From Paraburkholderia aromaticivorans (lineage in GTDB: Bacteria; Pseudomonadota; Gammaproteobacteria; Burkholderiales; Burkholderiaceae): 64,000 nt of DNA. Location: contig NZ_CP051516.1 in assembly GCF_012689525.1 (NCBI RefSeq), positions 1,860,001 to 1,924,000 of the forward strand, read 5' to 3'. The notes beneath the pieces were generated by a model. It was given only the letters and a program-made list of their open reading frames with translations, searched no databases and was not told the DNA's origin. Below are positions 2,050 to 51,654 of the stretch, piece by piece. The position numbers and the translations under genes are program-made. How positions within the stretch are numbered: the first letter of the stretch is position 1; each line of letters begins with the position of its first letter.

Positions 2050-2059
2050 GAGATCCCTC

Positions 2060-36850: not shown

Positions 36851-36879
36851 ATGTTCGGTCGATTCATGCCCACCGAGGG
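36851..36879. repeat. attL: left 29-bp direct repeat of the element
   Basis: Perfect match to 51626-51654, beginning exactly with ATGTTCGGTCGATTC. Bases on both sides differ between copies, so 29 bp is the exact core of identity. An integrase gene begins 177 nt inside. Confidence 0.93.
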
Positions 36880-36901
36880 AAAAATTGCTGGTGTCATATA
36901 G
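36851..36901 (+). pseudogene. 16-codon remnant of DUF47 gene start, left by element insertion
   Basis: The first 29 bases are identical to the start of the intact DUF47 gene at 51626, so the frame reads MFGRFMPTEGK and then leaves the homology, ending at a stop after 16 codons. It stays behind dnaB with the original upstream sequence, while the gene body is now beyond the element. Confidence 0.85.
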
Positions 36902-36987
36902 TTTCACCACGTTCCACAGACATGATTTAAGTCGTTGAAAACACAGTGTTTTTGGTTCATGTTGTTTCGTGTGATTCCACGATGCTT

Positions 36988-37010
36988 TTTCGTACAGCGT
37001 TCGTACGAAA
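36988..37010 (+). promoter_or_regulatory. Inverted repeat in the integrase promoter region
   Basis: Perfect TTTCGTAC/GTACGAAA with a 7-nt spacer, 45 nt before the integrase ATG and next to a GTATATTCC -10-like stretch. Likely operator or integrase arm-type site. Confidence 0.6.
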
Positions 37011-37055
37011 CGAAAAATCGGGCGTATATTCCGGTCACACCAACCGGGAGCCGAC

Positions 37056-38186
37056 ATGGCCGACAGCATCAAAACCAAGACCTCACGCGCCAAACTGACC
37101 GCACGCCGCGAACCGTATTTCGAAGCGATCCGCAAGGGCGTGTTCGTTGGGTTCCGCAAACTCGAATCAGGGGCCGGGACGTGGATCGGTCGCTATCGGT
37201 TGGCCGATGGTAAGCAAACCTTTAAATCCTTTGGTGATGACTTAGCCGAATTTGACGATGCGCGCAAAGCGGTCGAAAAGTGGGCGGAAGCGCTCGACGG
37301 CGGCGTACAGAATAAAAGCACCACCGTAAGCGATGCGTGCGAAGCCTACGTTAAGAAACTGCTAGTCGATAATTCCCCCGCCAGTTCCAAAGATGCTGAC
37401 TATCGCTTTAAGCGGTTGGTGTACGGTCATCGCTTCGGAACGCTCGACCTGTCGAAGTTGCGCGCGTTTGAAGTCGAAGGCTGGCGCAATGGTCAGCTTG
37501 ACGCTGACGACCCCGACGACGAAGAAAGCTACAACCGGGCGAAGGATTCAGCCAACCGCAACTTGGCATCGTTGAAGGCCGCGCTCAACTACGCGTTGAA
37601 GTGCCAGCTTACGGCAACCGATACGGGATGGAAGGGCGTCAACAAGTTTCCGAAGGTAGGCGCACGCCGGGAAGGGTTGTTGACGGTCACGCAGCGCCGC
37701 GCACTACTGGAAGCCATGCCGATTGAAATGCGCGCACTGTCAACCGCGCTTCTGATGACCGGCGCGCGACCGGGCGAAGTAGCCAACGCGAACGCGTCGG
37801 ACTACGACCGCAACACCGGACGGCTTTGGCTCGACGGCAAGACAGGACGCCGGGAAGTGCCGTTGTCTACGGCGGCGCGCGGATTCTTTGACGAACAATC
37901 GAAAGACAAGATCGGCAATGCGCCGTTGCTGACGAACGCGTTTGCAAGCCGCTGGACGGCGGCGCAATGGGGCAAGGCATTCCGGGAAGCGCGCGATGCG
38001 GCAAGTCTGCCTGACGCGGTTTTGTACTGCATGCGTCACACGTACATTAGCGAAGCCATCGCCCAAGGCATCGACGTTTTCACGGTCGCTAAGCTGACCG
38101 GTACAAGCGTTGCCATCATTCAGAGCAATTACGGGGCGTTGACAGATAACATCGTTGAACGGCTCGACCGCGTTGCCGTCATGTAA
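37056..38186 (+). CDS. Tyrosine recombinase (integrase) of the element
   Basis: 376 residues. N-terminal arm/core-binding region to about 190, then the catalytic domain: Arg in LMTGARPGE, Lys in DGKTGRR, HxxR box as MRHTYIS, and the nucleophile Tyr in QSNYGAL near the C-terminus. All catalytic residues are present. GGGAGCC precedes the ATG. It should integrate the element at the 29-bp core in the DUF47 gene start and, with an excisionase, excise it. Confidence 0.93.
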   Translation: MADSIKTKTSRAKLTARREPYFEAIRKGVFVGFRKLESGAGTWIGRYRLADGKQTFKSFGDDLAEFDDARKAVEKWAEALDGGVQNKSTTVSDACEAYVKKLLVDNSPASSKDADYRFKRLVYGHRFGTLDLSKLRAFEVEGWRNGQLDADDPDDEESYNRAKDSANRNLASLKAALNYALKCQLTATDTGWKGVNKFPKVGARREGLLTVTQRRALLEAMPIEMRALSTALLMTGARPGEVANANASDYDRNTGRLWLDGKTGRREVPLSTAARGFFDEQSKDKIGNAPLLTNAFASRWTAAQWGKAFREARDAASLPDAVLYCMRHTYISEAIAQGIDVFTVAKLTGTSVAIIQSNYGALTDNIVERLDRVAVM

Positions 38187-38208
38187 CCCCCGCTCGCCAC
38201 AAAAGACT

Positions 38209-38236
38209 AAGCCCGCTGCGTGCGGGCTTTTTTGTG
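38209..38236 (+). terminator. Terminator after integrase
   Basis: AAGCCCGC/GCGGGCTT stem with a 5-nt loop and TTTTTT tail, 23 nt beyond the integrase stop. Confidence 0.88.
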
Positions 38237-38484
38237 CGTGCAGCAAACCGAGTATCACCATGCCACGCGGTTTGACCCTAAGGTCACAATGTCCCTTACT
38301 TGCCATCAGTGGGCAGGATCAGAGCCCGTCAGTGCTGGTTTACGGGCGACATACGAACGTGGATACGGAAACACTTGAACTATAGAAATACTCTAAAAAA
38401 TGATTTTTGTAGCAAAATCAATGCGTTATCTGAATATGCACACAACTTTGGACGGCTGGGAACAAAAAGGAACGCAAAAGGTTG

Positions 38485-38513
38485 TTGACGGCCCCGACCG
38501 ATTCCACTATCAT
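38485..38513 (+). promoter_or_regulatory. Sigma70-type promoter for the first AlpA/initiator operon
   Basis: TTGACG (38485-38490), exactly 17 nt, TATCAT (38508-38513). Expected transcription start near 38520, leaving an untranslated leader of about 160 nt before the first gene at 38684. The preceding 250 nt hold no gene that I recognise and are A/T-rich. Confidence 0.75.
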
Positions 38514-38519
38514 TCAGCT

Positions 38520-38668
38520 ACCGTGGTTTTTGACGCCTAGACAAAAGTAGTCCGAATCACGCCGCAAGCCGCCTTACTGGAAACAGTGGGCGGCTTTGTC
38601 GTTTACGATGCGCAGTACCACACCTGACCCGCACAGCCGCGCAACCGGCCTGCGGGTTTTTCCGTTTA
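38520..38668 (+). ncRNA. Structured leader RNA with two terminator-like hairpins before AlpA-1
   Basis: Hairpin A at 38566-38596: AAGCCGCC/GGCGGCTT closing an inner ACTG-GAAA-CAGT, followed by TTTGTCGTTT. Hairpin B at 38627-38657: ACCCGCA/TGCGGGT followed by TTTTTCC. Both lie between the promoter and the first start codon, so most transcripts could end early. This resembles transcription-termination control of P4-type satellites; the RNA itself is inferred. Confidence 0.55.
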
Positions 38669-38683
38669 CCCGACAGGAACGCC

Positions 38684-38875
38684 ATGAAGAACCAACCCCA
38701 GCCAGCTTTTTATTCCGTCCGTGAAGTCTGCCAAGTCCTTGGTATCGGCAGAACAACCCTGCATCGCTTGATCGAGGGCGGGCAGTTCGTGCCCAAGGTC
38801 AGCTTGTCCGCTCGCCGTGTCGCGTTCAGCGTGCCCGCTGTACAGACGTGGATCGAGACGCGGGGCGCGGCATGA
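38684..38875 (+). CDS. AlpA-like transcriptional regulator/excisionase 1
   Basis: 63 residues: FYSVREVCQVLGIGRTTLHRLIEGGQFVPKVSLSARRVAFSVPAVQTWI, the MerR-like helix-turn-helix and wing of AlpA. AlpA proteins regulate integrase genes or act as excisionases in satellites and prophages. CAGGAACGCC precedes the ATG. The stop overlaps the next start (ATGA). A paralogue is encoded at 43331. Confidence 0.82.
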   Translation: MKNQPQPAFYSVREVCQVLGIGRTTLHRLIEGGQFVPKVSLSARRVAFSVPAVQTWIETRGAA

Positions 38876-39093
38876 GCGGCCACCTAATGGTGATGGCAGG
38901 GCCAGAGGCGGGCGCGGTTGACGGCTTGGTAGTCGCCAGGCTCGAAACCTTGGCGCGCGAGTCGAGTATGTCAGTAAAGACGCTTCGCAGGCATATCGCT
39001 ACAGCGGAGCGGGGCGGCTGGCTTAAGGTCGTCCGATTTCATGGCGACTGTTACGGGTTCATCCCGACAATCCCCGAGGGGCATCAGGCATGA
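38872..39093 (+). CDS. Small winged-helix DNA-binding protein
   Basis: 73 residues. LETLARESSMSVKTLRRHIATAERGGWLKVVRF is a helix-turn-helix with wing, as in phage replication or regulatory proteins. Coupled by ATGA overlaps to both neighbours, so it is made with AlpA-1 and the initiator-like protein. Confidence 0.7.
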   Translation: MSGHLMVMAGPEAGAVDGLVVARLETLARESSMSVKTLRRHIATAERGGWLKVVRFHGDCYGFIPTIPEGHQA

Positions 39094-39824
39094 CAGTGCT
39101 TGCATTTCACAACGCGGTCCTAGACTCAGACTTGCCGATGGGCGTAAAGATGGCGCTGATAACCATAGACCGCCATCGCAACAAAGAAGGTGAAGAGGTA
39201 TGGCCTGGCATTGAGCGCCTGTGTCACTTGTCGTCCAGTAAGAAAACCGCCTTCATGGGTTACTTGAGGGTGGCCGAAGATTTGGGTTGGCTTACCCGCG
39301 AGCGCCGTTTCAATCGCTCAAATGTTTTTGACTTGTGCATCCCGGCAATGCCCAAACGGTTAGCGGATGCGGAAACGCCGATGGTTCGGAATCTGAACCA
39401 TCAAACGGCTGATAGTTCGGAATCTGAACTTCCAATGGTTCGGAATCTGAACTTTGAAGTAACCAAGGAAGTGACCACCAACCTTGAAGTGACCAATATT
39501 ATTTTCGCGAGCGCAGAAAAGCGGGAAATCGAGCAACCCGAACACGCTGCCGAAGTCGTTGCTTCTGCTGAACTGGAAGTTGCTGCTGTTGCTGCCGAAC
39601 CGGTTGCCGCTGCTGAACCTGTCATTCTGCCTGATGCGGTTTGCTTCCTCACTGACGACATGCGGTCGCGTCATTCGCATAGCGGCCTGCCCGCCGACTC
39701 GCTGACGCGCTTCAACGTTTGGTACGCAGAACGCACGCACCTTTACCCCGACCCGGAAAAGGCGTTCGTGAAGCATCTAAACACTGAGCGCTCGCGGTTG
39801 ATGAAACACGGCTTGGCGCACTGA
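39090..39824 (+). CDS. Replication-initiator-like helix-turn-helix protein
   Basis: 244 residues. N-terminal HTH_36-like domain (about 10-85: GVKMALITIDRHRNKEGEEVWPGIERLCHLSSSKKTAF...). A central variable segment encodes repeats of VRNLN, because three DNA iterons lie there; then an Ala/Val/Glu-rich linker and a C-terminal domain (DDMRSRHSHSGLPADSLTRFNVWY...). Domain order with iterons inside the gene resembles lambdoid O-type initiators. I did not find a helicase or primase in the element, so it would depend on host DnaB. Family name is by resemblance only. Confidence 0.65.
   Translation: MTVLAFHNAVLDSDLPMGVKMALITIDRHRNKEGEEVWPGIERLCHLSSSKKTAFMGYLRVAEDLGWLTRERRFNRSNVFDLCIPAMPKRLADAETPMVRNLNHQTADSSESELPMVRNLNFEVTKEVTTNLEVTNIIFASAEKREIEQPEHAAEVVASAELEVAAVAAEPVAAAEPVILPDAVCFLTDDMRSRHSHSGLPADSLTRFNVWYAERTHLYPDPEKAFVKHLNTERSRLMKHGLAH
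39384..39452 (+). repeat. Three iteron-like repeats inside the initiator-like gene
   Basis: Identical 15-mers GTTCGGAATCTGAAC at 39384-39398, 39415-39429 and 39438-39452 (starts 31 and 23 bp apart). Each is an imperfect palindrome. They are followed by TGAAGTAACCAA/TGAAGTGACCAA direct repeats and a short A/T-rich AATATTATTTT. Candidate replication origin. Confidence 0.75.
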
Positions 39825-40075
39825 ACCCGCGAGGGAAGTGCGGGGAACACCTAGCGAAGTAGGGGCATTTGCCGTAAGGGGGCAGCGAACAATTAAGCGG
39901 GATGGGGCTTTGCGCCCTGTGTACGAAGTGAATACGAACGCGGTGCCGATTTGCTGCGTGTTGCGTTAAGACAGCGCGAACAAGCGCCGGTAAAATATAG
40001 ATGTTGAATTAATAGCTCGTGCCGAATATCCACATGCTACCTAGATAGTAGCGAAAAATCAACAGGAAAACATAA

Positions 40076-40273
40076 ATGACTGCCCCATACGAAAGGCTTC
40101 TGGCGGCGCTGGCAGCCTACCCGGCAGGCGAACCGGGCGTAAAAGCGCCGACCGATTGGCCGAAGGATAAGGCGCACGTCCACGCGCTGCCGTTCAGTTT
40201 CAGCGAGGAACCGCGCAAGAATGCGGGCAAGCCAATCAAATCGCGTGCAGCGCTGCGGGGGTTGGCAGCATGA
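40076..40273 (+). CDS. Hypothetical element protein (65 aa)
   Basis: Basic, Pro/Lys-rich small protein, no motif recognised. CAGGAAAAC precedes its ATG, and TAAAATATAG about 85 nt upstream could be part of a promoter. The stop overlaps the next start (ATGA). Confidence 0.55.
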   Translation: MTAPYERLLAALAAYPAGEPGVKAPTDWPKDKAHVHALPFSFSEEPRKNAGKPIKSRAALRGLAA

Positions 40274-40671
40274 GCGTTCAGCGTACCTTGGAGCATGCCT
40301 ATCACGCACTGGCGACACGCGGCGCTGTGCGGATCGCTGGCTACTCCGCAGTAAGCACGGCATCGACGGCGCAGCAGCTTTCGACCGGCGAGCGGTTTTT
40401 ACAGGCTTTGTGGGTGATTCAGGCGACCCAAGTCGCACTAGACGCCATCGGTAACGCGTTCGTTATCGCAACGTATGACGGGCACGGCGAGGCGCGTCAG
40501 GCGGCAATCGACATTCTGACGGCGCACCTGATGACGGCGAAGGCGAACCCGGATCTGTTGCGGGCAGTGATCGAGCGCGAGCTAGTCATCGGGGGAAGCC
40601 TACTGCAAATCGACGGCCCGTATCGCGAAGCAACATGGCGTTTCGCAGTCATCGGCGTGGCGGCTTGCTGA
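40270..40671 (+). CDS. Hypothetical element protein (133 aa)
   Basis: Mostly helical, no clear membrane span despite a hydrophobic C-terminus (WRFAVIGVAAC). Coupled to the 65-aa gene. Not recognised. The 230 nt after it hold no convincing gene. Confidence 0.55.
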   Translation: MSVQRTLEHAYHALATRGAVRIAGYSAVSTASTAQQLSTGERFLQALWVIQATQVALDAIGNAFVIATYDGHGEARQAAIDILTAHLMTAKANPDLLRAVIERELVIGGSLLQIDGPYREATWRFAVIGVAAC

Positions 40672-40903
40672 GCGGGTCCGACTGGCGATGCGGGAGTTAG
40701 GCGAACGGGTGCATTCGTCGCTGAAACCAGTGTTCGAACAGCGCGGGTATGCCTAAGGATGTGTGGGAATCGATTTCTAGGCATACGGAAGGCACCTGGG
40801 CGGCCTTTGTAGGGGCGGCTGGCTAGGCAGGTGTAGGCCGAAGTGCAGAAGGCGGCTGTACGGCCTGTAGACAAATTAACCCAAGATAAACAATAGCACG
40901 AAA

Positions 40904-41584
40904 ATGAACGACGCGAAAACGAAAGTGATTTATCTAACGAATGGTGGCTTGGCGCTGGTTGACGCGCAAGACTTTGAATCGCTGAGTGCGCACACTTGGC
41001 ACGACCGGGAGGGCTACATTTGCCGATGGGAAGGCCGGAAGCTGGTTCGCATGCATCGGGAAGTGCTTGGACTCACGAAACACGACCCGCGCCGCGTGGA
41101 CCACGAAAACGGCAAGCGTTACGACAATCGGCGCTCCAATCTGCGGATCGCAACCAGCGTGCAGAACGGGGCCAACCAAGCCGTCAAGGCGAACAGCACT
41201 ACCGGATTGAAGGGCGCGACGTATCACAAGCGCGTCGGTAAGTTTCAGGCATCGATACGTGTTGATGGCAAGCGTCGCCACCTTGGATATTTTGCGACGG
41301 CGGAAGCTGCGCATGCTGCGTACGTTGCTGCGTCACAGGAAGGTCATGGCGAATTTCATCGGCCTTGCGAGCCGTCCCCGCATTGGTGGGAAGGCCACGC
41401 ATACCGAAGCCTTCGCCTTGCCATGCGGAACAGTACAAAACGATTGAAGGCGCTGTTGGGCGAGCCGCGAACAGCGGAGAACGGCGCAGCACTGGAAGTG
41501 GAAATGAAGGTAAGCGCCGAACGGTCGAATGCGCTAGGGCGCTTTGTTCTCGACGCAACGGCTCAATACGGATACGGGAATTGA
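40904..41584 (+). CDS. HNH endonuclease with AP2 DNA-binding domain
   Basis: 226 residues. HNH core about 48-85 (MHREVLGL...RRVDHENGKRYDNRRSNLRIAT, with the DHENG and DNRRSNL signatures). AP2-type domain about 95-140 (GLKGATYHKRVGKFQASIRVDGKRRHLGYFAT). This pairing is common in phage homing-type endonucleases that cut at specific sites. The C-terminal 80 residues are not recognised. It might be a free-standing homing enzyme or assist packaging, as HNH proteins do in some phages. Confidence 0.85.
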   Translation: MNDAKTKVIYLTNGGLALVDAQDFESLSAHTWHDREGYICRWEGRKLVRMHREVLGLTKHDPRRVDHENGKRYDNRRSNLRIATSVQNGANQAVKANSTTGLKGATYHKRVGKFQASIRVDGKRRHLGYFATAEAAHAAYVAASQEGHGEFHRPCEPSPHWWEGHAYRSLRLAMRNSTKRLKALLGEPRTAENGAALEVEMKVSAERSNALGRFVLDATAQYGYGN

Positions 41585-41585
41585 A

Positions 41586-41807
41586 ATGACGACGAACACG
41601 AAACAGGTATTGGAAAAGGCGCTGAACAACTTGCAATCGGCGCGCGGACGACTCAAGGGGCAACCCATCGAAGCGCACTTCACGCCGCGTATGTTGGCGT
41701 TGACGGATGCTTATCACAGCGCGTTGTACGCGCGGATTGAGGAACTGAAAGCGCAACGGAAAGCGCTGAAATCGGAACAATCCGACGCGCTGCGCGGTAG
41801 CGCGTAA
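41586..41807 (+). CDS. Hypothetical element protein (73 aa), helical
   Basis: Begins 1 nt after the HNH stop; predicted all-helical with heptad-like LxxxxxxLxxxxxxL pattern. Start at MTTNTKQVLE chosen from spacing to the HNH gene. Function unknown. Confidence 0.55.
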   Translation: MTTNTKQVLEKALNNLQSARGRLKGQPIEAHFTPRMLALTDAYHSALYARIEELKAQRKALKSEQSDALRGSA

Positions 41808-41939
41808 AGCTTGCTCGCATGAGCCAAAGCAAAACAACTATGCGAGCCGTGGAAATATTTTTCTGCGGCTTGTTTGCAAAACGGACCGCCTGACGCGCAG
41901 GTGACGCGCGCGAGGCAGAACGAGTGTGGATGGAGTGAC

Positions 41940-42566
41940 ATGAATCGACGTGAAGAAAAAGAAAAATGTGTACCACCTGTAGAACGACCGCAAGACGGGC
42001 GCACGCGGGCGCGACAAAAACAGCGCTGCGGCGCGCACACGCGGGCAGGCAATCCCTGCAACGCGCCAGTAGTGCCGAACAGCAACCGATGCCGCAGACA
42101 TGGCGGGGCAGGCGGCGCACCATTGGGCAACTGCAATGCCATGAAGCACGGCATTTACTCGAAATACCGCACGCCCGACGAAGCCGCCATGCTTCCTGCT
42201 GTACGTGCGGCGACTGGTGGCATCGATCAGGAATTGGAGCAAGCGCGCTTCGAGTTGATCCGCTTGCAGGCCGCACGCGACGACGCAGCATCGAACGCCC
42301 ATGGCGGGCTTGAACTGCAAAAGCGGCACGACCGGGAATCTAGTGAATACGGGCCGGGTGACGAAGTGGTTTATGAGCGCGTGGACTACTCGACAAAGAT
42401 CATCGCGGCTTTGCGGCACGTCGCGCAACTCGAAAAGGATCGTGCAACGCTGTTGCTGGCGGCGATCGAGCGCGGCGAGATTGGCGGCGATGACGACGGC
42501 GGGATAACTCGCACAGACACATTCATTTCGCCCGATGAGCCGGGACCTGAAAACCCAATTCTGTGA
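41940..42566 (+). CDS. HGG-motif protein resembling phage small terminase subunit
   Basis: 208 residues. Zinc-ribbon-like N-terminus CGAHTRAGNPCNAPVV...NRCRRHGGAGG then GNCNAMKHGIYSKY; this HGG pattern is common in small proteins encoded near packaging genes of phages and often annotated as terminase small subunit. The middle is a long helix (EQARFELIRLQAARDDAAS) that could mediate oligomerisation. No large terminase is present, which in satellites is expected when packaging is redirected. The stop overlaps the next gene by 4 nt. Confidence 0.6.
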   Translation: MNRREEKEKCVPPVERPQDGRTRARQKQRCGAHTRAGNPCNAPVVPNSNRCRRHGGAGGAPLGNCNAMKHGIYSKYRTPDEAAMLPAVRAATGGIDQELEQARFELIRLQAARDDAASNAHGGLELQKRHDRESSEYGPGDEVVYERVDYSTKIIAALRHVAQLEKDRATLLLAAIERGEIGGDDDGGITRTDTFISPDEPGPENPIL

Positions 42567-42778
42567 CGGGGCGCACGATGGCGAAATCAACGAATGAAGC
42601 CGGGACCGGTTGCATACGCGCACGGCTAACGGCGCGCATCGTGCGGGCTTGCCGTGCCGCGTACATACCGCATAGTCGCCGGTACGGCGCGAAGGCGCTG
42701 GCAACGCTATACGGCGTTTCTCATAACGCCGTGTGGTGCGCAGTCACCGGCAGGACATGGAAGCACCTGGGTAGGTAG
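42563..42778 (+). CDS. Small helix-turn-helix protein
   Basis: 71 residues from a GTG overlapping the previous stop (alternatively 66 from ATG at 42578). ARIVRACRAAYIPHSRRYGAKALATLYGVSHNAVWCAVTGRTWKHL is a homeodomain-type HTH seen in many phage regulators. Co-transcribed with the HGG protein. Confidence 0.6.
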   Translation: MTGRTMAKSTNEAGTGCIRARLTARIVRACRAAYIPHSRRYGAKALATLYGVSHNAVWCAVTGRTWKHLGR

Positions 42779-43067
42779 CGGACATTTGATACTTGCCTTT
42801 GCAGCGCAAGCCGTACTCAAGCGGGGCGGGCCTTTGCGGGCAGATACTAAAAACTATACGGAAAACTGCCCCTTCCCGGCGTGTCGGCGAATCGTTCCGA
42901 CCTTTCACGCATCTTTACTGTGCGCTTGCATCGTGTGGTGGCGTCTGGATGGCTGGCGACACAATGCGTGCAATTCCTGCGAATTATTTTTAGTTGCTCA
43001 ATCAACGACTTAGCTATAAAACGCCTTGTTTGATAGGCTTTTCGTGAGTTTTTGTTCGTCGGAGCGC

Positions 43068-43096
43068 TTGACTGGATGAATAGATAGGAGTACTAT
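43068..43096 (+). promoter_or_regulatory. Sigma70-type promoter for structured RNA / AlpA-2
   Basis: TTGACT (43068-43073), exactly 17 nt, TACTAT (43091-43096). It faces the second AlpA gene 230 nt downstream with hairpins between. No gene was found in the 290 nt before it. Confidence 0.72.
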
Positions 43097-43102
43097 TCGG
43101 CT

Positions 43103-43236: not shown

Positions 43237-43291
43237 GCCCGCTGCGGACACGAACGAACACGAATAAACACGTGCCGCCATCCACCTTCAC

Positions 43292-43319: not shown

Positions 43320-43330
43320 TTGAGCCAACC

Positions 43331-43651
43331 ATGACCGATCAACCCGCAAGGCTGCTGACGATGGCCGAAGTCGTCAAGCGCACAGGTATTTGCCGCACAA
43401 ATATTTACAGGCTAATCGCACGCGGCGAGTTTGCGCCCGTAGTTCGATTAAGCCCTTCCCGGATCGCCTTCCTTGAATCCGATCTAGCCGCATGGTTGCA
43501 CTCAAGACGTGAAGGCAGCGCCGCGTTGCTCGCGACGCTCGAAGCAAGCCGCAAGACGCCTTCCAAGCCTACCTACGCACCGATTCACTTAAACCAACTC
43601 AGGCATGCGCCTGCAAACGATGCGGGCGATTTATACGGGAACACCAAATGA
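43331..43651 (+). CDS. AlpA-like transcriptional regulator 2
   Basis: 106 residues. MAEVVKRTGICRTNIYRLIARGEFAPVVRLSPSRIAFLESDLAAWL is the AlpA helix-turn-helix; the remaining 45 residues form a basic tail absent from AlpA-1. Overlaps the next gene by 4 nt. Likely controls the downstream tail-fibre/accessory operon or excision. Confidence 0.8.
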   Translation: MTDQPARLLTMAEVVKRTGICRTNIYRLIARGEFAPVVRLSPSRIAFLESDLAAWLHSRREGSAALLATLEASRKTPSKPTYAPIHLNQLRHAPANDAGDLYGNTK

Positions 43652-43839
43652 CTGAACCGATTAAACGCGCTATCGACGGTAGTGCCACCGAGCTTGATGG
43701 CGTCGAGCGCTCAATAGACTTGCTGCGCATCTGCGCTTATGGAGGCGGTATCGGCTACGCGCGTTCGTCCGACCTCGCCGGCGAACAGGCTTTGCCGTCC
43801 GACAACCCGCAAATGGGGCCTGCCGAGGGCGCAGCCTGA
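43648..43839 (+). CDS. Hypothetical element protein (63 aa)
   Basis: Short acidic protein coupled by ATGA to AlpA-2. No motif recognised. Confidence 0.5.
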   Translation: MTEPIKRAIDGSATELDGVERSIDLLRICAYGGGIGYARSSDLAGEQALPSDNPQMGPAEGAA

Positions 43840-43938: not shown

Positions 43939-45666
43939 TTGGATCGACAACTAGTGTATCCCGGTCAAGTCCCGCTTGAAACGGACTTGCTGAACACAAA
44001 CCGCAATATCATGTTGGCGCTCGGCGGTCTGATTGGCGACATTTTCGGCACTGGCAACACTTACAGCGGATTGAGTTGCGTCCCGACAATCCCGGCAACG
44101 CTCAACGTTACCGTGAATCCGGGTGGCGTCTATTCGCAACAGAATATCGACAACACCGCGTATAGCTCGCTGCCGTTGAACACGGCACAGCAGACGATGA
44201 AGCAAGGCATTCTAGCGACTGCCGTCAACCTCGCAACGCCCGCCCCCGCGACCAATGGATTTTCTGTCAACTACCTAATTTCGGCGGCGTTCCTCGAAGC
44301 CGACATTAACGCGGTCGTGCTGCCGTATTACAACGCGAGCAACCCGCAACAGGCGTGGAGTGGTCCGGGTGGCTTGGGTGCGCCTAACACGACGACCCGC
44401 CAAAACACGGTTTCGCTGACGCTTACGGCGGGCATTGCTGCGACGACCGGAACGCAGACAACCCCAGCAACGCCAGCGGGTCAAACGGCGCTTTATGTGG
44501 TCACGGTTGCCTATGGGCAAACGACCGTAACAGCCGGGAACATCACGAAGGTATCGAGCGCCCCAACGTTGCCGTCTAGCCTTCTGGCCGCGATCCAAAC
44601 CGCGACTACCTCGACTGCGAGCGATACCGGGACCGCCAACGCGTACGCCCTGACGTTCTCGCCCCCGCTCGGCGCTCCTGTAGCTGGTGCGCCGTTCTGG
44701 ATGAAGGTAAAGACGACCAATACGGGCGCATCAACGCTCAATGCGACGGGCACCGCTTACCCGCTGGTTGGTGGCGCTCATTCGCCGCTGCAAGGTAACG
44801 AACTTGTCGCAAACGGCTGGGCACTGATCGACTGGAATGCGACGCTGAACAGCTATGTTGTGTTGGAGTGTACCGGCGCATCGGTGCAGGTCGGCGCTGC
44901 CGTTTCTAGCGGGCAAGCGGTTCAGTTCGGGCAGGTTTCGGGTGTTGTGGGCCAAGTGCGCAACCTCGCAATGAACGTCTCGGCTGCGAGTGCTTCGGCC
45001 ACCGCGACCGCTGATGAAATCATTGTCGAAAGCGCGTTGGGCGGATTGCGCTACTGCATTCCGAACTTCAACAAGACGATCAACCTCGCCACGACTGGCG
45101 CAGGCGGCATGGATACGGGCACGCCGCCCGCATCTGGCTTCGTCGCTCTGTACGCGATCTACAGCCCCGCGACTGGCGCAAGCGCGCTTCTGGCTACCAA
45201 CGCGACAAGCGCAGTTCAGCCGGAAGTGTATGGCGGCGCAAACATGCCTGCTGGCTACGCCGCGTCGGCGCTGGTGTCGGTCGTGCCGACGAATGCGAGC
45301 GGTCAGTTCGTCATTCTGAATCAGCAGGACCGCACGGTGTCCATGCTGGGCGTAGCGATGTTTAGCACATCGACCACGGCGGGCACGCCGACGATAGTCA
45401 ACAATTTGGCTGTCCCGCTGAACGCGCGCTTCTGCTCTGGCTTCATGCAGCCGGGCGCTAGCGCGGCTGGCAACATCGCGCTCAGTCTTTACGCCACATC
45501 TGCGGGCGGGGGCGCGAAAATCTTGGCTCAAACCATCTCGGGTTCTGGATCGATTGCAGTGCCATTCGAACGGCTCCGAATCGTCACCGCGCAACGTGCG
45601 TACTACACCGGCAGCGGATCGGGCACTGTGACCCTGGGCGCAACCGTCAACCAATACGAGTTCTGA
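43939..45666 (+). CDS. Tail-fibre-like structural protein
   Basis: 575 residues from a TTG start with GGAG 9 nt upstream; no in-frame ATG fits as well. The N-terminus (YPGQVPLETDLLNTNRNIMLALGGLIGDIFG) is typical of phage tail-fibre/baseplate-attached proteins. The rest is Thr/Ala/Gly-rich beta structure, ending in a beta-rich FERLRIVTAQRAYYTG...TVTLGATVNQYEF. A tail-fibre gene in an element without other virion genes could alter the host range of a helper phage. Confidence 0.75.
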   Translation: MDRQLVYPGQVPLETDLLNTNRNIMLALGGLIGDIFGTGNTYSGLSCVPTIPATLNVTVNPGGVYSQQNIDNTAYSSLPLNTAQQTMKQGILATAVNLATPAPATNGFSVNYLISAAFLEADINAVVLPYYNASNPQQAWSGPGGLGAPNTTTRQNTVSLTLTAGIAATTGTQTTPATPAGQTALYVVTVAYGQTTVTAGNITKVSSAPTLPSSLLAAIQTATTSTASDTGTANAYALTFSPPLGAPVAGAPFWMKVKTTNTGASTLNATGTAYPLVGGAHSPLQGNELVANGWALIDWNATLNSYVVLECTGASVQVGAAVSSGQAVQFGQVSGVVGQVRNLAMNVSAASASATATADEIIVESALGGLRYCIPNFNKTINLATTGAGGMDTGTPPASGFVALYAIYSPATGASALLATNATSAVQPEVYGGANMPAGYAASALVSVVPTNASGQFVILNQQDRTVSMLGVAMFSTSTTAGTPTIVNNLAVPLNARFCSGFMQPGASAAGNIALSLYATSAGGGAKILAQTISGSGSIAVPFERLRIVTAQRAYYTGSGSGTVTLGATVNQYEF

Positions 45667-45667
45667 T

Positions 45668-45853
45668 ATGCAAACGATTTGGCTAATGTACTCAGATGCG
45701 ATCGAGGCGACTGTGGTCGGCTGGTCGAATTGGGAGCAAGCCCGCGAAACGTGGCCGACGCAAGAAGAGATGACGACCTCAGATTCTCGTTATGCGGCTT
45801 TCTATGCTGCCGCTCCGGATTGGGCGAAGGGCGGCATGCCAACGCCGGAATGA
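45668..45853 (+). CDS. Small protein following the tail-fibre gene (61 aa)
   Basis: MQTIWLMYSDAIEATVVGWSN..., Trp-rich. The ATG begins 1 nt past the tail-fibre stop. Position fits a small tail-fibre accessory, but no family is recognised. Confidence 0.6.
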   Translation: MQTIWLMYSDAIEATVVGWSNWEQARETWPTQEEMTTSDSRYAAFYAAAPDWAKGGMPTPE

Positions 45854-45976
45854 CAACGGCGTCATTGAACAACTCGCCGCCCAAGCCGCTGACACACTGA
45901 CCCGCTACCTACGCACTGATTCACCTAAGCAAACCCTGCACGCGCCCTGCAAACGATGCGGGCGCACACAACCAAC

Positions 45977-46486
45977 ATGACACAGGAACACAGCAGCATG
46001 ACCACGACCCAACACGCCATCGAACGCGCATCGCAAGCCGCTTTTGACGTTTCCCAAGCGCATGCACGCCTTGCGGCACTCGAAGCCGACAACACGAAGC
46101 GGGGCAATACCTGCACGCTGATTTGCAACGAGCACGCACAAAAACGCGCTTGGGGCGCTGCGCAAGCTGACCTTGACGCGCTCGAAGCGGGCTTGCGCGC
46201 CGAAGTGGTTGCGATCAACGCCAACAAGGCGGAAATCGAAAACCTGAATCGCGTGGAAATCCCGCGCCTGAATACACAATCGTTCGCCATGCAGGTTGCG
46301 GCTGTGAGCGCATCGAACCGCAGCGCAGAAGTTGAATTTGAGGCCGCAACGCTGGCTTGGCTCGACGTGATTGGCGGCGAAGTTGGCGCGGCAGCAAAAC
46401 GACTTCAAGACGCGTACAAGGCGATTGGCAAAACGTCCGGCCTTCGCCTTGACCATACGCCGGTTTCCGCAGTGAGCGCCGCCTAA
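45977..46486 (+). CDS. Coiled-coil hypothetical protein (about 169 aa)
   Basis: Almost entirely helical, Ala/Glu-rich, with long heptad stretches (ASQAAFDVSQAHARLAALEAD; ALEAGLRAEVVAINANKAEIENLN). An alternative start at 45998 has AGGA 10 nt upstream. The following hairpin (CCCC..GTCAGC/GCTGAC..GGGG, about 46499-46530) could end the transcript. Scaffold-like shape, but no function can be assigned. Confidence 0.6.
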   Translation: MTQEHSSMTTTQHAIERASQAAFDVSQAHARLAALEADNTKRGNTCTLICNEHAQKRAWGAAQADLDALEAGLRAEVVAINANKAEIENLNRVEIPRLNTQSFAMQVAAVSASNRSAEVEFEAATLAWLDVIGGEVGAAAKRLQDAYKAIGKTSGLRLDHTPVSAVSAA

Positions 46487-46555
46487 AGAGTAATACCCCG
46501 CGTACCTGTCAGCAATCCCGCTGACGGGGCGCAAAACACTTTGGAGTAACACACT

Positions 46556-46912
46556 ATGCCGACCATGAGCCAAGCCGACAAGGCAGCACTCGAAGCCCGT
46601 CTTAAAGCCGCCTACGCTGAGAACGGTAACGCCGAAGCCAACGCCGCAGCGCGGGCGCGCACCAAGGCAGCAAGCGCAATCGAATATGAGTCGCTGAAAC
46701 GCGAAGCTATCCGCAAGGCGCAAGCACGCCGCTATGAAGCCCGCGCCGACCAACCGGAAACCGACAGCGTAGCGGGTCAGGATAATCGGCTGGAAGTCCT
46801 CGCTAAGAACTTGAGCGCGGGCGATTACGAGGCGGCAAAGCGCGACCTGTTGCGCAAGCCTTATCGTCCGGCGCGTGATACGAAGCTGGCAGGCGTCCAC
46901 GCATCGGAATGA
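46556..46912 (+). CDS. Charged helical hypothetical protein (118 aa)
   Basis: Ala/Arg/Glu-rich, helical. GGAGTAAC lies upstream of the ATG. Not recognised. The roughly 300 nt after it contain only a terminator at 47140-47180. Confidence 0.6.
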   Translation: MPTMSQADKAALEARLKAAYAENGNAEANAAARARTKAASAIEYESLKREAIRKAQARRYEARADQPETDSVAGQDNRLEVLAKNLSAGDYEAAKRDLLRKPYRPARDTKLAGVHASE

Positions 46913-47139
46913 TACCTGGCTGAACACAGGACATTGCGCGCCAGCACGCGGTTTTTAGTACCGTTTTACGGATGGGCGACGTTTGGCATGATTGCCGCCT
47001 TCGATGCGCCTGATTCGTAAAGCTATTTTCCTTCTGTCCACCAACGATCACACGCCCATCAGGGGCAAGTCCACACAACCGCACCGCTTTGCGCAGTTGC
47101 CCGCGTAATCACCTGGCGGGAAAGAGGGCATTGAGCAAC

Positions 47140-47180
47140 GGCGGCGCGGCACTCTTAACCGGGTGTTGCGCCGCCTTTTG
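47140..47180 (+). terminator. Terminator with TTTTGTCGTTT tail
   Basis: GGCGGCGC (47140-47147) pairs with GCGCCGCC (47168-47175) around an inner stem, followed by TTTTGTCGTTT, the same tail as at 1344 and near 38595. It ends the rightward operon before the convergent HEPN-like gene. Confidence 0.7.
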
Positions 47181-47220
47181 TCGTTTCTGGCTCGTCTGAT
47201 TGCTGCCACGAAGGCGCGGT

Positions 47221-47649
47221 CTATGGCGGCCCGTCTTGATGCTGCTGAACCCAAACCGCGAACGCCTTCATTTCGTCCGTATCCGTTACGCCTAGCTTTT
47301 GAGCCATCGGTACGGCTCGCATGAGTAGATACGCGGGCTCCCACTCGCTAACATCAAGTTCTGTTTCTAGCGGGTCGTTTGCGTGCTTCGCTTGGTTGCG
47401 CGCCTTGTTCAGTATGTCGGCGATTAACGTTCGATGTTGCTTGTCTGTAAGCGCCGGGTCTGTATCGCCCCTGTGAAATTCTGCAACTTCATCAAGTGCG
47501 ACCGGCAAGCCCGCACGCAATGACAGCTTCCCGAAAATTTCTTCCGCAGCGCCTGCAAGCGTAAGCGACGACAGGTAATCACCTTCGAAAAACAGCCGGA
47601 TCGACGTGTTTAGCTGACGCTCTGCGGCTTCCTGTTTGGTGTATCGCAT
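47221..47649 (-). CDS. Possible HEPN-domain protein
   Basis: 142 residues; start at MRYTKQEAA has GAGGGG 5 nt upstream. Helical. The segment DYLSSLTLAGAAEEIFGKLSLRAG followed by NKARNQAKHAND carries R-x4-H (RNQAKH), the catalytic signature of HEPN ribonucleases, at the right place in a helical bundle. HEPN proteins act as toxins in toxin-antitoxin and anti-phage systems. Divergent from the RHH gene with about 155 nt between. Assignment is by motif and helix pattern only. Confidence 0.55.
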   Translation of the reverse strand: MRYTKQEAAERQLNTSIRLFFEGDYLSSLTLAGAAEEIFGKLSLRAGLPVALDEVAEFHRGDTDPALTDKQHRTLIADILNKARNQAKHANDPLETELDVSEWEPAYLLMRAVPMAQKLGVTDTDEMKAFAVWVQQHQDGPP

Positions 47650-47804
47650 GCTGCCCCTCATTGTTTGACGCGCTGCGTGAAGTTGCGCGCCAAACCAGCA
47701 TAGCAGGGCGCAAAGTTGCCCGCGAATTGCCGCTCTACGCCGCTGCTTTGCTCAAACACTCAAATGATGCGATGATGCGCAGAACCAACGAAGCAGGGCA
47801 TGCC

Positions 47805-47984
47805 ATGACCACGAAGAAACCCAGTGCAAAGCCGTCAAGTGCGGCAGTCGAACCCGCAAAGATGGTGCGAGTCAATTTCGAAGTGACGCCAGAAGAACAC
47901 CGGCGGTTAAAGATTCACGCCGTTACCCAAGGCCGCACCATATCGGACATTTTGCGCGAGTACATCGCCACGTTGCGCGACTGA
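47805..47984 (+). CDS. Ribbon-helix-helix DNA-binding protein
   Basis: 59 residues; the C-terminal MVRVNFEVTPEEHRRLKIHAVTQGRTISDILREYIATL is a CopG/ParD-type ribbon-helix-helix. Start placed at MTTKKPSAK; earlier in-frame ATGs at 47769-47775 are possible. RHH proteins often repress toxin-antitoxin operons; this one lies next to the HEPN-like gene, transcribed away from it. Confidence 0.7.
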   Translation: MTTKKPSAKPSSAAVEPAKMVRVNFEVTPEEHRRLKIHAVTQGRTISDILREYIATLRD

Positions 47985-48142
47985 CGAACAGCGCCGGAAC
48001 TGCACCGCACTAGCCGCGCACTGACGGGGCTTTTTTACGGCTGTACGCGGATTTGCCTACTTAGGGCGACGAACGACCAAGCGGGGCAGGGCTTCGAGCG
48101 TCGCATACGGAACGCTGTACGGAAAAACATCCGTGTTTGAAG

Positions 48143-48177
48143 AAATGAGTAAATGATGTATTGATCAAATGAGTAAA
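48143..48177 (+). repeat. Direct repeat pair AAATGAGTAAA
   Basis: Identical 11-mers at 48143-48153 and 48167-48177, 24 bp apart start to start, in an A/T-rich patch upstream of the 59-aa gene. Spacing of about two helical turns suggests an operator; RHH proteins bind such arrays. Confidence 0.55.
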
Positions 48178-48249
48178 ATAGTTCATAGTTCGGTCACTGG
48201 CTCACGGCGAGCCTCAACGAACCGGATACGCGCACATGAGGGAATGACC

Positions 48250-48429
48250 ATGCAAAAAGACGCCAACCGGCGCAAGCCGTACGCGCTGCGTCGTATTAGC
48301 GCCGCTGTTGATCGCTTGATTCTGGCGACTTCGGCGGCAGACAAGATGCGCGCCGCTAAGTGGGCAAATGCTTGGGCGGCGATTGCTGGCCTACCGGAGG
48401 GTGTATCACGTTCGCATCCGGCCAAATAG
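48250..48429 (+). CDS. Small basic hypothetical protein (59 aa)
   Basis: Start at MQKDANRRK with GAGGG 7 nt upstream. Helical and basic; no family recognised. Confidence 0.5.
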   Translation: MQKDANRRKPYALRRISAAVDRLILATSAADKMRAAKWANAWAAIAGLPEGVSRSHPAK

Positions 48430-48541
48430 GCCGTTTTTCACCCGGTTTTCGCGGCTTAGAGTGCCGCGCGACCGATTGATAATCAGGGCGCGCAGTGCGG
48501 GCGACGCACCAGCCGCCAATTTACCTAACTGCACTGAATAC

Positions 48542-48769
48542 ATGAAAACCACTATCGCACTTCTGCTGACTGTTGCCACGCTTGCCGGTTGCGCCGGCTC
48601 GCCCCTCGAAACGCGCCTGACTATGGCGAAATCCCGCGACGCCTACAAAGCGTGCTTGATGGCGAAGGCGGGACCGTGCGACGCGGAGCGGGAAGCGTAC
48701 AGCGCCGACCGCGAAGCCGCTGGCTTGTCCCCGATGATGGCCCCGCGCCCCGTTGTCGTCGTGCAGTAA
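48542..48769 (+). CDS. Small lipoprotein (75 aa) carried by the element
   Basis: MKTTIALLLTVATLAGC is a complete lipoprotein signal; the mature part has two Cys (KACLMAKAGPCDAE), possibly disulfide-linked. Envelope lipoproteins of mobile elements can block superinfection, but there is no direct evidence. Confidence 0.65.
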   Translation: MKTTIALLLTVATLAGCAGSPLETRLTMAKSRDAYKACLMAKAGPCDAEREAYSADREAAGLSPMMAPRPVVVVQ

Positions 48770-48834
48770 CGAATTTGCAGGACCGCGCCGGAACGGGGTT
48801 CCCGGCATCACATCAATGACTGGACCGTAGAAAA

Positions 48835-48972
48835 ATGAACGAACAACAAGCAAACATCGCCGCCATGACAGAACAAGACTTCGCAGTAACGCTGACGATG
48901 TTCAAGCCGGAAGAACGCGCCGCATTGATGGAGGCGATGCGCGCAGCGGTTAAGGATGCCGCTACCGCCTGA
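48835..48972 (+). CDS. Very small hypothetical protein (45 aa)
   Basis: Open frame MNEQQANIAAMTEQDFAV... ending DAATA, predicted helical and acidic. A clean terminator follows at once (48996-49019), which supports a real short gene. No strong Shine-Dalgarno. Confidence 0.45.
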   Translation: MNEQQANIAAMTEQDFAVTLTMFKPEERAALMEAMRAAVKDAATA

Positions 48973-48995
48973 AGTACCGCAGCACGCGTGACAAG

Positions 48996-49019
48996 GCCCG
49001 CCATCGAGCGGGCTTTTTT
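48996..49019 (+). terminator. Rho-independent terminator
   Basis: GCCCGC/GCGGGC stem with 6-nt loop and TTTTTT tail, ending the lipoprotein/small-gene transcript. Confidence 0.88.
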
Positions 49020-49076
49020 GCGTCTCTACAGTCTCTACAATCAGCAGCGGCCTTATGAACGCGAAGCAAACGCGGT

Positions 49077-49664
49077 TTAGCCTGCCACGCCGTGCGCCAA
49101 ATCTCTACCCATGCACACGCGCAGAACCGCTGCCTTCATGCGTTTTGACGACATGTGACGAATGTCGTCATTCTCGAATATGTCACGCGCCGCTGCGCCA
49201 ACGCTGCGCATGACATCAGGCGATGCGCCTGAGTTTGCAGTGACTGCCATTGCGACGAAATCATCTTCATCCGTGTTTGACGATAGCGATTCTTTCATTG
49301 CGACGGAGCCAACAGCCAGAAGCGAGCATGCCGTTCGATCGTGCGCATCGTTTGGATTCATGTCTCCGACCAACCCTTGCACCGCTTCGTCATCTTGCTG
49401 GTTGCGCGTGAGCGGCTTTGCAGGCGCTTCAATGACGGGAGAAGATACTGGCGCGGGCGTAGCATCAGGCGGGGCCGTGGCGACACTTTGGGGCGATGCA
49501 GTTGGCGTATCAGGCTGGTTTGAGATGACTGCAATGCATCCGCCAACGAACAGGAAGCCAATGAGCACGATTACCGTTGCTGTTTTTTTTGCCTTGAGCT
49601 TCTGTTCGTGCTGCTTGTTCATGCGCGCTGCGTAAATCTCGGCTTGCGTCTGCTCCGTGTTCAT
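49077..49664 (-). CDS. Single-span membrane protein of unknown function (195 aa)
   Basis: Start at MNTEQTQAEI with GGGGGATC upstream. A cytoplasmic coiled N-terminus, one membrane helix (about 29-48), a Pro/Ala/Thr linker and a periplasmic C-terminal domain with two Cys. No family recognised. Divergent from the next gene. Confidence 0.6.
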   Translation of the reverse strand: MNTEQTQAEIYAARMNKQHEQKLKAKKTATVIVLIGFLFVGGCIAVISNQPDTPTASPQSVATAPPDATPAPVSSPVIEAPAKPLTRNQQDDEAVQGLVGDMNPNDAHDRTACSLLAVGSVAMKESLSSNTDEDDFVAMAVTANSGASPDVMRSVGAAARDIFENDDIRHMSSKRMKAAVLRVCMGRDLAHGVAG

Positions 49665-49756
49665 GTGATCCCCCGAATGCGTTGTAGTTGGTAGCGTTGC
49701 CGCGACACAATATCCGGATTGGGCGCGGTATACAAGCATCAATCTAGGAAGGTGCG

Positions 49757-50293
49757 ATGACTAAAGCCAATGACGTAAAGCGGCAATGGCTGTACGACGA
49801 AGTGTGGCGCGTTCCGATGGCAGAAGTTGGCGAGAATCTAGGCATTTCACGCGAAACAGTGAGGTGGGCGTGTATCAAGCTGGGCATACCACGTCCACCG
49901 CAGGCCTACTGGGTTCATCTTTGGAAGGGGCATCCGCGCGACCCGCGCCCGTCGCTACTGCCGCTTGCAAGAGGGCAGCGTAGCTCAATCACTCGGGCGG
50001 ATTTGTTGAAGCAGGAGCGTCCCAAGCGACGAAAGAACCCCGAATTGGAGAAGCGGCGTGCAGATGAGCGGAGGCGAATCCTTGATGAGTATCTTGAGCT
50101 TGAGCAGTTAAATCAGGAAGTTGACGATTGGCACCGCGCCGAACTGATGCGAGGCTATCTCGCCGAACTGGACCGCCGTCTCAGTGATGGCGGGCGGCAG
50201 GGAAGTGGTTATGAGGATTGGCGTATTAGGGCAGAGGCAGCAATTGTAGAACTAGACAAATCCAATTTGCGTGTGAAGATGTCAAAACGATAG
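49757..50293 (+). CDS. Hypothetical protein with N-terminal HTH-like domain (178 aa)
   Basis: The first 50 residues (WLYDEVWRVPMAEVGENLGISRETVRWACIKLGIPRPPQAYW) match a small recurring domain seen at the N-terminus of bacterial proteins of unknown function. The rest is charged and helical (about 95-150 coiled coil). Predicted DNA binding only. Confidence 0.6.
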   Translation: MTKANDVKRQWLYDEVWRVPMAEVGENLGISRETVRWACIKLGIPRPPQAYWVHLWKGHPRDPRPSLLPLARGQRSSITRADLLKQERPKRRKNPELEKRRADERRRILDEYLELEQLNQEVDDWHRAELMRGYLAELDRRLSDGGRQGSGYEDWRIRAEAAIVELDKSNLRVKMSKR

Positions 50294-50353
50294 TTGTGCC
50301 ACTGTCTTGCTCCTGACGGCGCAATGTCGTAGGTGGGCCGCGTTTGAATCAGG

Positions 50354-50842
50354 CTAATGAAAGCTCTGTGCAAATGCAGCATCAAAAACACCTTGCAGGT
50401 TCAAGAGAACTGCATTATCCGGCCCTGTTAGATAAAGTGCTAACTCGCCTGTCGGAGTGCACAGTAAAACCGCCTTGGTAGGAGGTTTTTTCCCGACTGC
50501 CCCGGCTTGACCAAATGGAGTTACATCAGCGAACCCATTGTTGTTTAAGTAGCCTACTGCCCAAGTTTGGCAGACCCCCGGATTGGGGAAGCGTTGTGGA
50601 TGCATACCAAAAATGACGTGAGGACCCTCGCTCATCTCTGTCTGCAAGGCCTGCAACGCAGCCTGCGCAGTGGTCAGTTGATTCCTCAGGTCAGAAACTT
50701 GGTTAGCAAGGCATTGTAAGTTTTGTCGTACGTCGGCCGCTTTATCATTGTCCAAGAGCACTGATCGGCAGTCTGCAAGCGCAGGGATTGATGTGACAGT
50801 CGCCAAAACGAGAACGTAGATATTCCGTTGCAATTTTTTCAT
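50354..50842 (-). CDS. Secreted coiled-coil protein (162 aa)
   Basis: Signal peptide MKKLQRNIYVLVLATVTSIP ending ALA, then a coiled coil (VRQNLQCLANQVSDLRNQLTTAQAALQALQTEM) and a C-terminal Gly/Pro-rich domain with Cys pairs. Probably periplasmic. Overlaps the upstream membrane-protein gene by one base (TAATG). A/T content is higher than in neighbouring chromosome. Confidence 0.6.
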   Translation of the reverse strand: MKKLQRNIYVLVLATVTSIPALADCRSVLLDNDKAADVRQNLQCLANQVSDLRNQLTTAQAALQALQTEMSEGPHVIFGMHPQRFPNPGVCQTWAVGYLNNNGFADVTPFGQAGAVGKKPPTKAVLLCTPTGELALYLTGPDNAVLLNLQGVFDAAFAQSFH

Positions 50843-51168
50843 TATCGGCAAACGATTGGTTGATCTTCTTTTGGGCCAGAGCATGGATTAGGCGGAGCGG
50901 CCTCAGCGGGCGCGACAGTTTGATGAGAGATCGGCGCGCTGCTGTCGGCTGAGTAGGTCATTACGGGGAACCACCCGCCATACCAAGAAACCTTAAATGG
51001 CAAGAACGCCTGTCCCAACGTAGCGAAAATGTAATAAACGACAATCACGACTATTAGCAGCCGACCAAACAGACTGCCGAGCAGCAGCTTTACAAGGGCA
51101 ACAATCCAGTGGTCGCTTGCATTGTTTGATGAGTTGCCCCGGGCGGGCGTTCCTGTGTCTTCGGCCAT
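50842..51168 (-). CDS. Small membrane protein (108 aa)
   Basis: Start at MAEDTGTPAR with GGGGAGAGG upstream. One strong membrane helix (about 26-50), then an aromatic stretch and a C-terminal tail with two Cys. Pairs with the secreted coiled-coil gene; the two probably act together at the envelope. Unrecognised. Confidence 0.6.
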   Translation of the reverse strand: MAEDTGTPARGNSSNNASDHWIVALVKLLLGSLFGRLLIVVIVVYYIFATLGQAFLPFKVSWYGGWFPVMTYSADSSAPISHQTVAPAEAAPPNPCSGPKEDQPIVCR

Positions 51169-51625
51169 CGTCCTCTCCCCGCGCAACTTACGTAACGTGT
51201 GACCTCTAGAGCATCTCAATTCAGAATAGGTCAAGTCTGATTGACAGTGCGAATTCGAAAAGCTCCGGACCGCCGAAACATAGACCATTCGACCGACCCA
51301 CGTAGCGGTTCAGCGCCCTATAGCGGGGGGGCGGCGGAATGATGTAGAGGCATGCCAGCCAATGACTTTGGCGTCGAAGAACCGTAGTGCGCACCGAAAT
51401 GTCCGAACGGAGTCGGCGCGTACGGAGTTTCAATGACCCTAGGGATTCAGCTGACAGGCAGGGAGGGACGTCGAGCGGGACCATTTCCGATAGAATCGCG
51501 ACTGTCATCGTCCGGTCACATTGTCGCGACCGCGCAACACCGGGCAAATTATTTTTCGTCCCGATTTAGTACAAGCATTCTAGGCAATAACTAAGTGCTT
51601 GATTCTAATGAGAAAAAAGGCATTT
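51169..51625. other. Right-end non-coding segment of the element
   Basis: About 450 nt without a convincing gene, between the last element gene and attR. It now supplies the upstream region of the DUF47-pit operon. AAAAAAGG lies 7 nt before the DUF47 ATG and can serve as ribosome site. A CAAGCA/TGCTTG inverted repeat (51572-51602) may be an integrase arm site. Confidence 0.45.
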
Positions 51626-51654
51626 ATGTTCGGTCGATTCATGCCCACCGAGGG
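51626..51654. repeat. attR: right 29-bp direct repeat of the element
   Basis: Perfect copy of 36851-36879. Here it is the true start of the DUF47 coding sequence, continuing in frame. Confidence 0.93.

Follow-up and report, generated by a model that had tools for sequence, protein, structure and literature searches.

A stretch of 64,000 nucleotides from the genome of Paraburkholderia aromaticivorans (contig NZ_CP051516.1, positions 1,860,001 to 1,924,000; called the window below) carries an element of 14.8 kb in the first codons of a phosphate-transport gene of the DUF47 family. The element is delimited by a perfect 29-bp direct repeat (36851-36879 and 51626-51654, 29 of 29 bases identical), a match that is not due to chance at such a length. 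It is a real, site-specific and mobile element and most likely a phage satellite, one that brings a packaging adaptor and a tail fibre of its own. That it is an integrated satellite which redirects packaging and places its own fibre on the particles of a helper myophage is given a probability of about 0.6.

Bounds and gene content had been proposed from the letters alone, in what is called here the sequence-only reading, and most of this held. The integrase starts 176 bases past the left repeat copy, the insertion lies in the start of a DUF47 gene, and both AlpA-type regulators as well as the HGG small-terminase-like protein score above the cut-offs of their families. When 24 open reading frames of the element were scanned against PHROGs, none matched a family of large terminases, portals, capsids, sheaths or baseplates. 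An initiator-like gene with internal iterons had also been proposed; three copies of the 14-mer TTCGGAATCTGAAC (ending at 39398, 39429 and 39452) were found within it, and family matches point weakly to an initiator, with the resemblance belonging to the second of two HTH_36-like proteins. In phage lambda, iterons are likewise located inside the initiator gene O. The fibre had been described as standing without other virion genes, which was borne out for head, sheath and baseplate, but two weak tail matches were obtained, one of 50357-50884 to phrog_737 (minor tail protein, E 0.0013) and one of a coiled-coil-like protein to a tape-measure family. The features are as follows.

36851 to 36879, forward strand: left repeat copy (attL core), by repeat comparison.
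51626 to 51654, forward strand: right repeat copy (attR core), by repeat comparison.
37056 to 38186, forward strand: tyrosine integrase, 376 amino acids (PF00589; phrog_1, E 3e-39).
38684 to 38875, forward strand: first AlpA-type regulator, 63 amino acids (PF05930 and PF12728, above the Pfam cut-off).
38848 to 39093, forward strand: small winged-helix protein, HTH_36-like (E 0.00014, below the cut-off), true start uncertain.
39090 to 39824, forward strand: initiator-like protein, 244 amino acids (phrog_270, E 6e-06; phrog_391, "O-like", E 0.003; HTH_36 below the cut-off).
39385 to 39452, forward strand: three iterons with a 14-bp core, within the initiator-like gene.
40904 to 41584, forward strand: HNH-AP2 nuclease-like protein, 226 amino acids (phrog_99, E 1.9e-37).
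41874 to 42566, forward strand: HGG small-terminase-like protein, 230 amino acids (NCBIfam HGG_STG above the cut-off; phrog_1889, terminase small subunit, E 5.6e-08).
43331 to 43651, forward strand: second AlpA-type regulator, 106 amino acids (PF05930, E 8.3e-10, above the Pfam cut-off).
43648 to 43839, forward strand: protein of 63 amino acids immediately upstream of the fibre.
43939 to 45666, forward strand: tail fibre, 575 amino acids (phrog_11518, tail fiber, E 3.6e-38).
45668 to 45853, forward strand: protein of 61 amino acids 3' of the fibre (phrog_20339, unknown function, E 1e-10).
45956 to 46486, forward strand: coiled-coil-like protein, 176 amino acids, by eye (weak tape-measure family match, E 0.011).
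51626 to 52252, forward strand: host target gene, DUF47/PhoU_div (PF01865, E 9.4e-30), first codons inside attR.
36799 to 36804, forward strand: promoter-like TACAAT hexamer, presumed to function as a promoter, on the left side of attL and in its present position 5' of the integrase.

Two sister elements were found at the DUF47 site, one in G332, a genome from another genus of the family, and one on the IMG/VR contig UViG_2928503688_000003. Genes for integrase, initiator, fibre, hub and tape measure are present in both, whereas none of the head, large terminase, sheath or baseplate markers used was found in either. The 18.0-kb element of G332, with both repeats, encodes an integrase (65% identical), AlpA-like and winged-helix stretches, an initiator, an 845-aa fibre, a 390-aa hub (phrog_52, E 7.7e-21), a 706-aa protein, an HGG protein (44-48% identical to that of the window), a resolvase and a PrtN-type activator. 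Neither PHROG nor Pfam gave a match for the 706-aa protein, which is called a tape measure because its relatives sit between the sheath and an N-type gene in 16 loci. On the IMG/VR contig, dnaB and the core were found with an integrase (66%), initiator, HNH protein, AlpA, a protein of the 63-aa type, a 461-aa fibre, a fibre-assembly protein (phrog_1348), a 624-aa tape measure (phrog_28, E 4.6e-27), a resolvase and a 389-aa hub that is 56% identical to that of G332. The first 215 or so residues of the window fibre are 63-66% identical to the fibres of both sisters. The small winged-helix protein of the window is 52% identical to a stretch of G332, and the 63-aa protein, which has no PHROG match, is 47% identical over 52 residues to its counterpart in the IMG/VR sister.

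Similar gene sets were found in four satellite-like loci at other sites, whose outer bounds are not fixed. G345, next to a tRNA-Leu, has an integrase, a DnaB-like helicase, fibre and hub; G115, next to a gene reading as icd, has integrase, fibre and HGG; G205 has a hub followed by HGG at a contig end; and the IMG/VR locus L271 has integrase, fibre and two HGG proteins (partly assigned by eye). PrtN-type pyocin activator genes (PF11112) lie on the reverse strand in G332 (L064:2641-2916, above the cut-off) and in G345 (L244:8124-8414, below the cut-off) and could tie late expression to DNA damage. The genome of P. aromaticivorans itself has a second element at tRNA-Pro(ggg), 21.8 kb long and flanked by perfect 32-bp repeats (G000:C3:3232543-3254353, loci L107 and L108), with an integrase, a coiled-coil protein, a hub (phrog_177, 46% identical to that of the resident prophage described below) and a fibre; no head or sheath gene was recognised among its listed open reading frames, some of them unscanned.

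Gene order bears on how such sets arose. Among 23 hub-bearing loci in the family genomes, 20 have phage baseplate neighbours, and G332, G345 and G205 are without them. The hub precedes the fibre in all 20 full prophage loci; the fibre precedes the hub in G332, G345 and the IMG/VR sister, with the order fibre, hub, tape measure and HGG in G332 and fibre, tape measure and hub in the IMG/VR sister. The orders of these two sisters are not derivable from the phage order by deletion alone. This counts against the strongest alternative, in which the element is the remnant of a full HGG-type myophage prophage, stripped of its head genes and most of its tail genes, and in which the remaining genes are not maintained as a unit. 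Such an origin would fit with full-phage relatives of both fibre and HGG, with a window element devoid of hub and tape measure, and with a hub in G205 that is nearly that of a full prophage, but the recurrence of similar sets elsewhere with unrelated integrases and the constraint on HGG proteins (below) make it unlikely.

In the hub tree, which was built by a quick method without bootstrap and left out identical rows, hubs below 300 amino acids other than satellite rows, and the partial L076 hub, the four satellite-like hubs stand at four separate places. Their nearest phage hubs are 84%, 73%, 58% and 92% identical, the last being the G205 hub and a full prophage's over 153 columns. The tree requires 4 changes for the 4 satellite-like rows, the same as in all 500 shuffles, and thus there is no clustering; the four placements suggest that hub genes may have been captured repeatedly by satellites. 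The fibre tree, without rows that lacked the motif or were shorter than 190 residues, has 5 changes for 6 rows, of which at least 3 are forced (shuffled mean 5.9). A single origin of the tail genes in satellites was rejected on these grounds, namely the unclustered hub rows and the forced changes in the fibre tree. For HGG, a tree with 21 phage rows picked for an adjacent large terminase (that of L277 by eye) has 3 changes for 5 rows (shuffled mean 4.7; 23 of 500 shuffles as low), and one clade of these rows was not rejected (p-AU 0.061).

Ratios of nonsynonymous to synonymous substitution rates (dN/dS) were low. Hubs gave 0.08-0.16 between satellite-like and phage rows and 0.12-0.20 between phage pairs, one of them saturated; as the former are not below the latter, which a prophage remnant would also allow, these values cannot alone show selection in satellites. 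HGG pairs between satellite-like loci gave 0.25 and 0.37, values that speak against a decaying remnant, and the shared first part of the fibre gave about 0.19-0.24 among the three elements at the site.

The site itself is well defined. A DUF47 gene was present in 34 of 34 same-genus genomes, and dnaB was its immediate upstream neighbour in 26 of 29 loci, as well as in 4 of 5 additional ones. Empty dnaB-DUF47 sites, which had been expected in relatives, were found in 30 of the 34 genomes, and an insert was found in the other four. Inserts differ in size: G025 (P. dilworthii) has 36.5 kb between perfect 29-bp repeats with an integrase of 63% identity, G030 an integrase fragment within about 2.5 kb, and G008 about 2 kb between dnaB and the core. 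In G007, no dnaB was found within the 22 kb to the contig end. The DUF47 gene of G008 is present as two overlapping pieces in different frames. In L018 (G032), an empty site with a partly duplicated core was observed, which is perhaps the scar of an imprecise excision.

A search of genome contigs with the integrase placed four of five matches at the DUF47 site, in P. xenovorans LB400, P. phenazinium LMG 2247, P. sp. BL9I2N2 and P. dilworthii WSM3556; the fifth (27%) was in Actinomyces. An integrase relative at 1e-60 was found in 12 of 398 family genomes, and among seven of these stretches, a set without G182, G197 and G372, the core was present in G332 only, the other six integrases being 48-53% identical. 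The DUF47 site is thus a hot spot of one integrase subgroup, in which integrases 62-66% identical to that of the window bring other, mostly non-phage cargo. In the 10 kb to the right of the four integrases at the site, no match to the other genes of the window element was found except for a resolvase of the G332 kind.

This cargo is the basis of a further alternative, that the element is a genomic island which is moved by other means, holds phage genes as mere cargo and is not packaged as a satellite. The same integrase family accompanies an FhaB-like exoprotein gene in P. dilworthii (G025) and genes read by eye as non-phage in LB400, P. phenazinium and BL9I2N2. However, the window element combines HGG, initiator, AlpA and fibre, and parts of this set are found again in the two sisters and in loci elsewhere; such recurrence argues against chance cargo. 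An island of this kind appears somewhat less probable still than a prophage remnant. Relatives in the form of a full-length prophage were also looked for; the two site relatives that share phage-type genes are not full prophages, and a full prophage at the site was rejected, as head, portal, large terminase and sheath genes are absent from the window element, G332 and the IMG/VR sister.

Several observations weigh against the satellite interpretation. The tail and packaging set of the window element consists of fibre and HGG alone, with no hub or tape-measure gene found; in its right-hand 5 kb all PHROG matches are weak; and Pfam and PHROGs scans gave no primase family besides the initiator-like gene. 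HGG was not found in G345, nor in the 15.1 kb of the IMG/VR sister, whose contig ends inside the element. No flanking repeats of G115 and G345 were found in the stretches searched, and the tRNA-Pro element keeps the phage order with the hub before the fibre. The majority of the occupants of the DUF47 site are plain islands, and no helper was found in the host genome.

Insertion seems to exchange the start of the DUF47 gene. G197 and G372, from the genus of G332, have the same left flank as attL of G332 and the core ATGTTCGGTCGATTCATGCCCACCGAGGG. In G332, this core is at attL, and the form at attR has three synonymous third-position changes, at bases 6, 12 and 15. Strand exchange therefore takes place beyond base 15, on its right side, and at attR the element supplies the gene's first codons. 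At the right end of G030, and at that of G182 if its site is occupied, differences are confined to the first part, with the last 13 bases in common, and some of the changes alter the protein. From these comparisons it is concluded that elements at the DUF47 site carry a usable start of the host gene, of which the attachment site is an example. In 25 of 26 empty sites a TACAAT hexamer lies no more than 130 bp from the gene start, versus none of four occupied right ends (that of the window included); in the window it remains at the left end, directed at the integrase, and a promoter swap upon insertion might be plausible. SXT/R391 elements likewise insert into the start of a host gene, prfC, and supply a new start, but they are conjugative and use another gene.

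As a phage satellite, the element would work as follows. The integrase would recombine the core at the very start of the DUF47 coding sequence, excision and induction may be regulated by the AlpA proteins, and the iteron-bearing initiator would replicate the excised circle using host proteins. During growth of a helper myophage, the HGG protein would replace the small terminase subunit of the helper and direct its large terminase and heads to element DNA. The fibre, whose first part is like that of HGG-type myophages, would be mounted on helper baseplates, and the receptor would then be set by the element; the sisters may additionally supply hub and tape-measure protein.

HGG-type myophages are the likely helper class. 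In two full myophages, UViG_3300046694_000207 and 3300013306_000006, HGG immediately precedes the large terminase, and their fibre, hub and tape measure are closest to those of the IMG/VR sister. In the host genome, no match to the large terminase of G270 (an HGG-type prophage) was obtained in a search without positive control, and no second fibre shares the first part of the window fibre; one family used in this helper search also matched 6 of 14 control genomes. A resident myophage-type prophage has its right end at window positions 1-3393 (G000:C3 from about 1824000) and encodes a large terminase (phrog_15), portal, sheath, tape measure and hub. It had been proposed as the phage to induce but is probably not the helper; on weak evidence, the candidate was set aside, as its fibre is without the first 200 residues of the element's fibre and the G270 terminase does not match the phrog_15 one.

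Such tail genes are usually part of full phages and satellite-like loci are few, because 114 of 123 IMG/VR loci found via fibre, hub or tape measure (some contigs being counted more than once) have at least two helper-only markers. Of the remaining nine, two are the sister contig, five have one marker and two are free of markers, the fibre in these lying no more than about 1.1 kb from the contig end. HGG relatives were found in 48 IMG/VR loci with an alignment query and in none with a single-sequence query.

Satellites are known to take tails from helpers, and known groups share features with the element, which integrates site-specifically with repeats and empty sites and holds no full virion gene set. 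Gram-negative phage-inducible chromosomal islands (PICIs) resemble it in integrase, AlpA, size and absence of head genes, and some carry a small terminase subunit; they have a primase-type replication gene, whereas the window element has a tail fibre and no primase found. P4-like satellites carry genes such as psu, sid, delta and alpha, and none of these families was found among the scanned open reading frames of the window element. The closest precedent are the PICI-like elements (PLEs) of Vibrio, so that the element varies a known theme of tail-bearing satellites. According to the available part of a 2026 report (PMC12987554), PLEs build chimeric tails that contain a tape measure of their own and, for PLE11 of Vibrio cholerae, a hub as well, PLE11 also having its own tail chaperone, and were termed the first such family, with a benefit said to need further work. 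The sisters have a tape measure and hub in common with PLE11; host and genes differ, the window element has fibre and HGG and no tape measure or hub, while PLEs are recognised by a tape measure and tail chaperone of their own, and the fibres in PLE11 tails are proposed to be the helper's (PMC12987554, in part). In the same part, putative tape-measure (tmp) genes are noted in PLE-like elements and in capsid-forming PICIs (cf-PICIs), which as satellites with virion genes of their own are similar but form their own heads, while the window element has no capsid, portal or large terminase. The Streptomyces satellite MiniFlayer likewise has a tail-fibre gene, but its fibre binds the helper neck, and the satellite carries head and packaging genes of its own and lacks an integration module (PMC10690885, as far as the available part goes). 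Phage-inducible chromosomal minimalist islands (PICMIs) are described in the part available with int, alpA, primase and a fis site (PMC10803314), and differ from the window element at DUF47 without primase. For 923 fis islands, the available part of PMC10111431 shows no match to the two tail families tested. The view that the satellite looks undescribed thus stands in part: a satellite is the best supported reading, but satellites with tail genes have precedent (PMC12987554, in part) and the site mostly holds plain islands. In open-licence literature other than preprint servers, no description of such satellites or of the DUF47 site was found.

A broader idea, which is tentative and for which the odds are somewhat unfavourable, is that Burkholderiales satellites repeatedly capture the recipient-contacting tail parts (fibre, often hub, sometimes tape measure) from different helper myophages and, spreading in heads and sheaths made by the helper, gain a host range and an entry route of their own. 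If this holds, satellites could reach bacteria that are beyond infection by their helpers. This would be a second group, unrelated to PLEs, whose recurrent part is the receptor-binding fibre, and would point to host range or entry as a benefit that is testable.

Further scans of the window element gave minor results. Near-identical DNA had no match in plasmid and phage collections, promoter and terminator scans gave no more than in shuffled sequence, and defence families among ten open reading frames gave just two weak matches, both of the HNH protein. Coiled-coil-like proteins were also seen by eye near the fibre in other loci and, despite this likeness, have no significant BLAST match to each other. 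Finally, the dnaB matches in L042 (G028) and L063 (G332) consist of two pieces with overlapping query ranges, a pattern as an intein-like insert would give.

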